Shown: positions 39,988 through 41,972 of the stretch, piece by piece
How the letters are laid out: each line of letters starts with the position of its first letter
How positions within the stretch are numbered: the first letter of the stretch is position 1
DNA from: Polaribacter sp. Z022
Lineage (GTDB): Bacteria; Bacteroidota; Bacteroidia; Flavobacteriales; Flavobacteriaceae
Direction: 5' to 3'
Assembly: GCF_023555495.1 (NCBI RefSeq)
Contig: NZ_JALCZO010000003.1
Location: forward strand, 310,001 to 374,000
DNA length: 64,000 bases
Made by a program: the position numbers and the translations under genes
Notes under the pieces: generated by a model
Seen by the model: only the letters and a program-made list of their open reading frames with translations
The model's database searches: none
What the model was told of the DNA's origin: nothing

Positions 39988-40001
39988 ATAATCAAATTTT
40001 T

Positions 40002-40505
40002 TTACTTTTTCATAATTTTTGTAAAGTTAGATAGTAACCAATGCTCATCAGCTTTAATTGCATTTTCTAACATCGAATTTACTTTTGTTGTTACAAAAGA
40101 TAAATCCCCTAAAACTTTTTTAAATTGCTCACCTTCTTCTGTAGAATCGTCAACTTTTTGTAATTCATCTAAAACTTTTATAACAGGTTCTATTTCTCTT
40201 TTCTTTCGTTCTTTGGTAATTTGTTTAAACAATTCCCAAATATCTTTATCTGCAACAAAAAACTCTTTACGTTCACCTACTACAAATTCTTTTGAAACAA
40301 TACCCCAATCAATTAAAGCTCTAACATTCATATTTACATTTCCTCTAGAAATTTTTAAAGTTTCCATAATGTCTTCAGCAGAAAGAGGTTTTGTAGAAAC
40401 TAACAACAAAGCATGTACTTGAGCCATGGTTTTATTTATACCCCAAGAAGTTGCTAAACTTCCCCAAGTTTGAATGTATTTATTTTTTGCTTCATTTAAT
40501 TCCAT
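40002..40505 (-). CDS. GbsR/MarR-type transcriptional regulator
   Basis: 167 residues with the GbsR pattern: MELNEAKNKYIQTWGSLATSWGINKTMAQVHALLLVSTKPLSAEDIMETLKISRGNVNMNVRALIDWGIV (MarR-type winged helix, the recognition helix near SRGNVNMNVRAL), then VVGERKEFF on the wing and a helical C-terminal dimer region. In Bacillus GbsR senses choline, but the ligand here is unknown. ATG at 40505. The promoter (TTG-N19-TATATTTG) lies immediately upstream with an inverted repeat overlapping the -33 element, and a second copy follows the gene: a self-regulated local repressor is likely. Confidence 0.85.
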   Translation of the reverse strand: MELNEAKNKYIQTWGSLATSWGINKTMAQVHALLLVSTKPLSAEDIMETLKISRGNVNMNVRALIDWGIVSKEFVVGERKEFFVADKDIWELFKQITKERKKREIEPVIKVLDELQKVDDSTEEGEQFKKVLGDLSFVTTKVNSMLENAIKADEHWLLSNFTKIMKK

Positions 40506-40509
40506 GGTA

Positions 40510-40541
40510 CAAATATACAATAAATTATTTAACTTTCAATA
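40510..40541 (-). promoter_or_regulatory. GbsR-gene promoter, consensus with N19 spacing
   Basis: On the minus strand TTG (in the repeat arm, about 40539-40537), exactly 19 nt, then TATATTTG (40517-40510). The start codon lies 4 nt after the -7 box, so the mRNA has almost no leader. Confidence 0.65.
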
Positions 40542-40551
40542 ATTACTGAAA
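40532..40551. promoter_or_regulatory. Operator-like inverted repeat upstream of the GbsR gene
   Basis: ACTTTCAATAATTACTGAAA: TTTCA and TGAAA around 8 nt. It overlaps the -33 element of the regulator's own promoter and matches the repeat at 39962-39987 in 19 of 20 positions when that one is read on the minus strand. Confidence 0.65.
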
Positions 40552-40566
40552 ATTAAATAACTAAGT

Positions 40567-40917
40567 TTATTTTGTTTCAGTAGACTTTAAACCATCTATC
40601 AATCCCTTCAAATCTTTTAAAGAATTTGTGACATTGTTTTCTTTAATTACATCGTTCATTAACTGAATTGCCTCTTGAGGACTAGAATTTAACATCGTTT
40701 TTGCAGCAGCAGCTGTCACTGCATTTTGTAATGTGTGTAATTGTTGTTGCTGTTGCACAATATTCATCATTGCAATACTTGCAGCTTGTGTAGTAATTTG
40801 GTTAGAAATAGAATCTAAACTAAAACTACTGTCTTTTAAAAATCCATTAACTTGTTTAATAGCATCAATTATTTGGCTATTTACAGTTTTTCCTGAGTTA
40901 TTGTTTGTTTCTGGCAT
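40567..40917 (-). CDS. RebB-like R-body protein, longer paralogue
   Basis: 116 residues. After a short polar N-terminus it has the Reb ('killing trait') pattern: TVNSQIIDAIKQVNGFLKDS, QITTQAASIAMMNIVQQQQQLHTLQNAVTAAAAKTML, then a charged C-terminal extension (ENNVTNSLKDLKGLIDGLKS). RebB-like proteins polymerise into R-bodies, rolled protein ribbons that unroll under acid and break membranes in Caedibacter. Whether this pair makes an R-body is unknown. It overlaps the 3' end of the neighbouring Reb gene by 20 nt, so both are co-translated. Confidence 0.72.
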   Translation of the reverse strand: MPETNNNSGKTVNSQIIDAIKQVNGFLKDSSFSLDSISNQITTQAASIAMMNIVQQQQQLHTLQNAVTAAAAKTMLNSSPQEAIQLMNDVIKENNVTNSLKDLKGLIDGLKSTETK

Positions 40918-41137
40918 CTTTTGTTGCTAAAATAGTGGTTACACATTGAGTTGTTACTGCTTGAGATAATATATTAGCTTGCTGTTGTTGGTTAACTGCA
41001 TTCTCCATTAAAATTCCAATAGAATGCGCTAAAGATTGATACACATTTCCCATTGCCATAGCTGGTGCTTCTGCTACCACCTTTACATTAGATTGAGTTA
41101 CTGCATCTGTTACTTGAGGATTTACTACATCTGACAT
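40898..41137 (-). CDS. rebB: RebB family R-body protein
   Basis: 79 residues with the family signature: VNPQVTDAVTQSNVKVVAEAPAMAMGNVYQSLAHSIGILMENAVNQQQQANILSQAVTTQCVTTILATKD. The blocks N-x-Q-V-T-D-A-V-T-Q-x-N-V-K-V, APAMAMGNVYQSLAHS and NAVNQQQQ are those of RebA/RebB from R-body loci. No transmembrane segment or signal peptide. No housekeeping-type promoter box was found upstream; it is divergent from a metallothionein-like peptide and a SigZ-type sigma factor, which may direct its transcription (inference). Confidence 0.85.
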   Translation of the reverse strand: MSDVVNPQVTDAVTQSNVKVVAEAPAMAMGNVYQSLAHSIGILMENAVNQQQQANILSQAVTTQCVTTILATKDARNKQ

Positions 41138-41328
41138 TTTTAATATTTTTTAAAGTTATAATTATCTAAATGTACATTTACAATTTGACACTTTTAAAGT
41201 AAATACTGAAAATCAAGTGTTTACACCTATTAAAATGGAGGAATATACTTTCTCTAAAAATAATTTATATAAAATGCATCTTTTTCAATAACTTTAAGTC
41301 TATTAAGTGAATATTAAAAATCAATATC
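41138..41328. promoter_or_regulatory. Divergent control region, Reb genes / Cys-rich peptide
   Basis: 191 nt of AT-rich sequence without an exact TAnnTTTG box on either strand. It holds a perfect 12-nt palindrome AAATGTACATTT and an ACACTT...AAGTGT inverted repeat around about 41190-41222. Absence of the normal -7 box on both sides could mean that an alternative sigma factor, perhaps SigZ itself, reads it. Confidence 0.4.
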
Positions 41329-41430
41329 ATGAAAAATAATAATTGTACTTGTAATTGCGTAGGTTGTAACACAGGAGATTGCAAAAATTGTACTTGCCAA
41401 AACTGTACATGTTCTAATTGTAATTGTTAA
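41329..41430 (+). CDS. Metallothionein-like Cys-rich peptide (33 aa)
   Basis: The frame reads MKNNNCTCNCVGCNTGDCKN then CTCQNCTCSNCNC: 11 Cys in 33 residues, five of them in C-x-C pairs, the rest polar Asn, Thr, Gln and Gly with no aromatic residue. This is metallothionein-like in composition, but I recognise no family. It stops 2 nt before the SigZ start, so is almost certainly co-translated with it. It could buffer metal, sense metal or redox state, or act as a Cys-rich anti-sigma factor; the last two are inference from position. Its size would hide it from most gene finders. Confidence 0.7.
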   Translation: MKNNNCTCNCVGCNTGDCKNCTCQNCTCSNCNC

Positions 41431-41432
41431 AA

Positions 41433-41972
41433 ATGACAACTAAACAAGTTTGGACTTCGTATTCAGAAGATTTAAAACGATTTATCATCAGCAAAGTAAA
41501 AAATAATACAATTGCTGATGATATTTTGCAGGATACTTTTATTAAAATTCACACAAAACTCCACACTTTAAAAGATTTAAATAAATTAAAATCTTGGTGT
41601 TTTACTATTGCTAGAAACTCCATTTTAGATTATTGGAAATCTACAAATCAAACTTTTGAAATTGCAAATTTTGAAAGCGAAACAGAGACTTCAGAAACCA
41701 TTCATACAGAAAAAGATTGTTTACGTGGAATTTTAAAAAGTCTTCCTAAAAAATATAGAGACCCTTTATTTTTATCAGATATAAAAGGATTAAAACAACA
41801 AGAAGTAGCCAATCAATTAAAACAAAGTTTACCAACTACAAAATCTCAAATTCAACGTGCAAGAAAATTAATTGCTCAAGGTTTTATGGATTGTTGTGGT
41901 TTTGTTTTAAATAGTGAAGGAAATTTAGTGGGAGAAGTTCAAGATAAAAAGGATTGTAAAGTTTGTAATTAA
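41433..41972 (+). CDS. sigZ: RNA polymerase sigma factor, SigZ type (ECF)
   Basis: 179 residues. Region 2 is visible as SEDLKRFIISKVKNNTIADDILQDTFIKIHTKLHTLKDLNKLKSWCFTIARNSILDYWK and region 4 as LPKKYRDPLFLSDIKGLKQQEVANQLKQSLPTTKSQIQRARKLI. The C-terminus DCCGFVLNSEGNLVGEVQDKKDCKVCN is Cys-rich and matches the SigZ subfamily, where it may bind metal or sense redox state (inference). No anti-sigma factor gene follows, apart from the tiny Cys-rich peptide before it. Start ATG at 41433. Confidence 0.87.
   Translation: MTTKQVWTSYSEDLKRFIISKVKNNTIADDILQDTFIKIHTKLHTLKDLNKLKSWCFTIARNSILDYWKSTNQTFEIANFESETETSETIHTEKDCLRGILKSLPKKYRDPLFLSDIKGLKQQEVANQLKQSLPTTKSQIQRARKLIAQGFMDCCGFVLNSEGNLVGEVQDKKDCKVCN

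Follow-up and report, generated by a model that had tools for sequence, protein, structure and literature searches.

R-bodies are protein springs, and a pair of overlapping genes in Polaribacter sp. Z022 raises the question of whether as few as two Reb-type proteins could form such a structure. The pair lies within a stretch of 64,000 nucleotides (positions 310,001 to 374,000 of contig NZ_JALCZO010000003.1), hereafter the window, to which coordinates refer unless another locus is given. An initial annotation had described it as a pair of RebB-like genes with the RebA/RebB signature in a flavobacterium and had considered the role of R-bodies in free-living Bacteroidota to be little known. The host is indeed a flavobacterium, of the same genus as Polaribacter aquimarinus. 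The second statement has to be corrected, as R-body genes were already on record in this phylum from Kordia (Raymann 2013) and from at least 10 species of Chryseobacterium (Dorr 2026). Both open reading frames were recovered where they had been placed, on the minus strand and overlapping by 20 nt, and the features of the locus are as follows.

40898-41137, minus strand: S, short Reb protein of 79 aa, matching PF11747; likely ribbon subunit
40567-40917, minus strand: L, long Reb-like protein of 116 aa, recognised by the profile of its relatives; likely assembly partner
40898-40917, minus strand: overlap of the S and L genes, 20 nt by their coordinates; predicted translational coupling
41213-41228, minus strand: palindromic box AGGTGTAAACACTTGA, candidate regulator site, ending 78 nt before the S start codon
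41329-41430, plus strand: Cys-rich ORF of 33 aa with ~11 cysteines, just before the SigZ-like sigma factor gene
41433-41972: SigZ-like sigma factor

Two overlapping genes and their family

Comparison with the Pfam RebB family (PF11747, curated cut-off 24) gave 101.2 bits for S (E 3.4e-29), whereas L, at 15 bits (E 0.027), stayed under the cut-off and reaches the family only via its relatives; the match anticipated for both proteins was thus obtained directly for S alone. NCBIfam returned zero Reb matches for either protein. As originally quoted, S contains VTDAVTQSNVKV, APAMAMGNVYQSLAHS, and NAVNQQQQ, and its QVTD, NAV, and QQQQ motifs match the published Reb signature, which comprises (Q)ITD, NAV, and QQQ motifs, low charge until a charged C-terminus, and scarce F, W, and C (Dorr 2026). 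The composition of S is of the same type (no F or W, one Y, one C, low charge), with charged residues (D, E, K, R) at 8% and then 31% toward the C-terminus. L carries QIID, NAV, and QQQQQ motifs, two F, and no C, and lacks the EAPAMAM stretch; the charged tail ascribed to it is present, with 24% of residues charged after residue 66 versus 11% in the first 66 aa. Reb proteins are helical in structure (Raymann 2013). S was modelled as a single helix spanning residues 7-78 (pLDDT 74, pTM 0.32); the model of L, a low-confidence one (pLDDT 64), has four helices. A PDB sequence search with S found no solved relative. Compared with P. aquimarinus (NG86 method), dN was 0.085 and dS 0.77 for S, and dN was 0.167 and dS 2.04, a saturated value, for L. 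Amino acid-changing differences are therefore far rarer than silent ones, and both proteins are constrained.

The relationship of L to the Reb family emerged from profiles. A search with the single L sequence matched 17 proteins, and a profile of 19 aligned relatives gave 126 matches at E<=1e-3 among 3948 candidates. Among the 120 matches listed, the profile goes from Polaribacter to 115-aa proteins of Dyella, Lysobacter, and Agrilutibacter with PF11747, and PF11747 members match it at about E 1e-22 to 1e-38. Conserved in the alignment are the N, Q, and D of the first motif, the QQ stretch, and the tail around PEEAL. In profile-profile comparison (hhalign), the L family reached 97.5% (E 7e-12) with RebD-type Rebs and 88.8% with group 2 Rebs, compared with <=1% for five column-shuffled controls of the L profile against four targets. 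Given this difference and the E value of S, the Reb matches of S and L are not due to chance. Judged by these sequence comparisons, L is a Reb relative through its relatives rather than its own score, and the Reb-family status first proposed for both genes stands on that basis. Moreover, judged by an exact match in length of the longest contig, 8 of 15 close L relatives are seemingly on contigs carrying an S relative, which suggests that the S-L pair stays together across relatives.

Genomic setting and a compact module

The closest locus in the genome collection, from which near relatives of the host genome itself may be left out, is that of P. aquimarinus, where S is 86% identical and the two genes also overlap (locus L090, 10061-10077). 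The pair is kept there and in several metagenome contigs. With the host genome counted each time, PF11747 was detected in 4 of 146 genomes within the genus; the figures are 4 of 397 at family level and 7 of 395 at class level. At E<=1e-12, the L profile matches 2 of 395 genomes of the order, namely the host genome and P. aquimarinus. The L proteins of the other two genus genomes with reb genes (G029 and G143) have the same sequences as P0144 and P0140, entered at NCBI as 'RebB family R body protein' of strains SA4-12 and Hel1_85, so reb-type genes of Polaribacter were already annotated. No match was found for S in the phage collection or for L in plasmids and viral contigs; S matched in 17 plasmid records, none of them assigned by name to Bacteroidota.

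Next to the cassette, each of the four Polaribacter reb loci has a SigZ-like sigma factor gene together with a small ORF rich in Cys, both on one side; in Hel1_85, a 113-aa gene intervenes. A CudC-like regulator lies on the other side in three of the four, SA4-12 having none. Ten loci lacking reb were also fetched; the regulator-to-sigma factor interval is spanned by 8 of them, and a 175-aa gene and a 111-117-aa gene each occur in 6 of the 10. The interval 40521-41328 (and its counterparts in L092-L102) is variable among Polaribacter and holds reb genes or a 175-aa, 111-117-aa, or 201-aa gene, and Cys-rich ORFs are found near the SigZ-like sigma factor in Polaribacter with and without reb. The neighbouring regulator (40002-40520) was considered as a reb-specific trait and dropped because it is present in 50 of 142 genus genomes, against 4 of 146 for reb, and because SA4-12 has reb without it.

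A box like TAGGTGTAAACACCTGATTTT is common to the four Polaribacter reb loci, 73-78 nt before the first reb ATG. With one mismatch at most, three of these loci have its 12-base core (the copy in P. aquimarinus is looser), and the eight spanning intervals without reb lack it. The 15-base box has one exact site in the host genome and three with one mismatch (a reversed control pattern gave 1); with a single exact site, the idea of a wide regulon was dropped. Upstream of the Kordia cluster there was no close match, and near the Chryseobacterium gregarium cluster there was one looser match. The reb promoter of Azorhizobium contains palindromes bound by a repressor and by a Crp-type activator; the Polaribacter box resembles neither consensus.

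Polaribacter sp. SA4-12, Hel1_85, and flavobacterium G806 share the gene order short Reb, short Reb, L, T, in which T is a small, charged ORF of 58, 60, and 62 aa, respectively. In G806 this module is at a different genomic place from the Polaribacter loci. This order recurs in Dyella acidiphila and D. acidisoli, where the T position is taken by a 90-aa ORF.

L088:9092-9268, L089:9083-9265, L150:8126-8314, L171:6315-6587, and L172:7168-7440: ORF T, which immediately follows L in the five compact loci (two phyla)

When the L profile was run on 20 genomes, 19 matched at E<=1e-3 and the two Dyella alone reached 1e-47; the others, at 6e-12 or weaker, scored as cross-matches to other Rebs do. In both Dyella genomes, the compact module and the canonical R-body cluster occupy different places: about 29 kb lie between them in D. 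acidiphila, and in D. acidisoli they are on different contigs. Position and composition suggest that the Dyella and flavobacterial T proteins are one family, an assignment that is tentative because identity to the SA4-12 T is just 23-25% across phyla.

The window contains a short Reb gene followed directly by one for an L-clade protein, without the second short Reb and without T. A T profile built from five members, which recovers each of its own five, had no match in this genome or in P. aquimarinus, a result that speaks to absence and not to spread. Within 40000-41500, no T remnant was seen, and queries with the first short Reb matched S, weakly L, and nothing else. The host genome (99.4% complete) has one PF11747 match, and a 40-row Reb profile found in it S, L, and no other Reb proteins. 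With two reb genes in the whole genome, it does not reach the cluster filter of Dorr 2026 (at least 3 reb genes); the two-gene form is missing from the synteny maps of that survey because the maps drop clusters of fewer than three genes. A RapA-like profile and a 269-aa partner found nothing in the genome, both searches having been run without a positive control. The identity of a RebA/RebB pair was not upheld: S and L belong to a compact module unlike the canonical cluster, which here consists of two genes. In the survey of linked genes in relatives, S-L adjacency recurred, and the relatives proved to have a fuller short-short-L-T set that is absent here. The pair is likely a cut-down form of the compact module that occurs also in Dyella, and the simpler guess is that this lineage lost the remaining parts rather than that the others gained them.

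Kinds of Reb protein and known R-body systems

To place the two proteins, Reb groups were sorted by motif and position from fetched loci (the best 80 of 180 matches), with labels of our own after Dorr 2026 and HP1.x names given by length and position after Raymann 2013. Two of 54 rows first classed as RebD-type proved group 2-like and were excluded afterwards. S scored 111 bits with the group 2 profile and 97 bits with the RebD-type profile and is thus intermediate, since for group 2 members the two scores lie 51 bits or more apart. In a 65-row tree, clades of L (100/100), group 2 (98/92), and RebD-type proteins (91/89) were recovered; S was placed with P. aquimarinus only, its position beyond that being without resolution. 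A 74-row tree (90 columns) added group 1 proteins of Azospirillum and Vibrio, with three long-branch rows excluded and two proteins trimmed. Here a 99/95 branch had on one side S, the short proteins of the compact loci, groups 1 and 2, two Thalassovita proteins, and the Caedibacter proteins of 114 and 105 aa; RebD-type proteins fell outside this structural side, and the short proteins formed one group with a support of 67/85. The L clade (98/93) joined HP1.3, HP1.4, and their Vibrio counterparts at 90/91, a region in which the program warns of long branches, and a clade of L, HP1.3, and a 150-aa Vibrio protein alone was not rejected (p-AU 0.35). On the Azospirillum cluster, the L profile scored HP1.3 at 56 bits versus 33-35 for the structural Rebs. 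From these tree positions and profile scores, S looks like a structural subunit and L like an accessory Reb, nearest to HP1.3. The early suggestion of a polymer subunit plus a second component fits the larger tree, with S on the structural side and L in its own clade.

A RebD-RapA reading, prompted by the short-then-long order as in canonical clusters, had mixed support. L reached 12.8% with 31 proteobacterial RapA-like rows (those of 52 loci meeting our own motif rule), 84.1% when four longer proteins of L022, L064, L072, and L080 were added, 77.9% with these four accessory proteins alone, and 0.4% with 14 Bacteroidota RapA-like rows. The reading was dropped because the L clade is apart from the three RapA-like 'sec' proteins in the trees, canonical RapA rows not being among them, and because S is outside the RebD-type clade. 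As side observations, Thalassovita autumnalis has four adjacent Reb-like genes (L022:4965-6087; 104, 76, 76, and 114 aa) resembling the compact order, but its 114-aa protein sits among other accessory proteins, at the end of a very long branch. Kordiimonas marina (L072:2882-8427) and an alphaproteobacterium (L080:2757-8376) have 12 Reb-like ORFs each within 6 kb.

Among known systems, S is 42% identical to one of three Reb proteins of Caedibacter taeniospiralis type 51 (pKAP298; rebA, rebB, rebD), two of whose Rebs (114 and 105 aa) are those on the S side of the 74-row tree. The Caedibacter system has, by literature, three Reb genes and rebC (Raymann 2013), compared with two here, and its 3.3-kb stretch contains no L-type protein among its Reb matches. 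Group 2 clusters (Kordia, Chryseobacterium, and Pseudomonas) consist of RebD, a RapA-like gene, and then 2-5 structural Rebs, which are up to ~70% identical to S. Unlike in these clusters, no RebD-type, second subunit, or RapA-like gene was found here (the RapA-like search lacking a positive control); S is short-tailed, without the IYS-DT tail of group 2 subunits, and L, in contrast to the group 2 partner, is not RapA in trees built without canonical RapA rows. Group 1 clusters (Azospirillum and Vibrio) supply the accessory protein that fits the L profile best, HP1.3, but L has a conserved tail where the group 1 accessory Rebs have a proline-rich one, and group 1 has four short Rebs versus one here. 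What the window shares with the compact loci (SA4-12, Hel1_85, G806, and the two Dyella) is S-L adjacency and an L protein of one common clade (100/100 and 98/93).

What the pair may form

We consider the pair most likely to be a reduced yet selected R-body-type operon. That S polymerises into an R-body-type ribbon and that L aids its assembly, within a small Reb-family operon, is in our judgment evenly poised. In such an operon, S and L would be co-transcribed, with translation coupled via their overlap; by comparison with known systems, S would polymerise into the ribbon and L would aid or cap the polymer. More speculatively, the ribbon might extend after uptake by a grazer and break membranes, as described for Caedibacter; that the pair acts on grazers at all is a guess from such systems. 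There is precedent for a second, unlike protein in an R-body, because RapA of P. aeruginosa occurs in the insoluble fraction at a level comparable to those of RebP1 and RebP2. Counting against a ribbon, the studied systems, as far as the accounts consulted describe them, need more parts than two; S lacked resolution in the 65-row tree, the short-protein group had just 67/85, and the model of L is of low confidence. The parts required vary from system to system in these accounts: Azorhizobium R-bodies need rebAZC3, rebAZC4, one of rebAZC1/2, and AZC_3784, whereas RebA, B, and C are sufficient for Caedibacter ribbons in E. coli and insufficient for killing (cited by Raymann 2013). We regard as a tentative minority view the stronger claim that the pair is a self-contained two-protein R-body machine, without RebD, RapA, a second structural subunit, or T, and the smallest form of a compact module common to Bacteroidota and Gammaproteobacteria.

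Somewhat less probable is that the pair has ceased to make an R-body: as a remnant left after loss of the first short Reb and T, it would be kept for another role, such as a short filament or a soluble helical complex. The presence of two Reb genes only, the missing T and second short Reb, and the three or more Reb-type parts needed in the systems studied are in line with such a remnant, but both proteins are full length and under constraint, and the pair has been retained in P. aquimarinus and several metagenome contigs. A polymer or inclusion other than a coiled, extendable R-body, e.g. a fixed intracellular filament, is improbable: the missing IYS-DT tail of S and the unlikeness of L to each Reb class in the trees would suit it, but the S core belongs to the structural Reb type. 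Finally, that S and L are small regulators rather than structural proteins is very improbable, because, although some S relatives are named 'antirepressor protein RebB' in databases, no DNA-binding domain match reached its family cut-off among matches listed at E<=1 (just RebB for S), and the composition is that of Reb subunits.

Returning to the reduced R-body-type operon, no description of Polaribacter R-bodies was found by title or opening of the abstract among the papers listed in literature searches, of which one mentions R-body and Polaribacter once each, and the main text of the Dorr 2026 survey does not mention Polaribacter. The compact module, its Dyella copies, and T were likewise not found described in the parts of that literature covered, and the group seeds of Dorr 2026 may hold the short-short-L set under another name. 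What is new is the compact module and its two-gene form; Bacteroidota R-body genes and the Polaribacter L relatives were already annotated. Overall, two phyla share a compact module that may include a fourth gene, and a two-gene form of it occurs here. If true, a natural two-gene R-body would offer very few parts for testing in E. coli and for structure determination.
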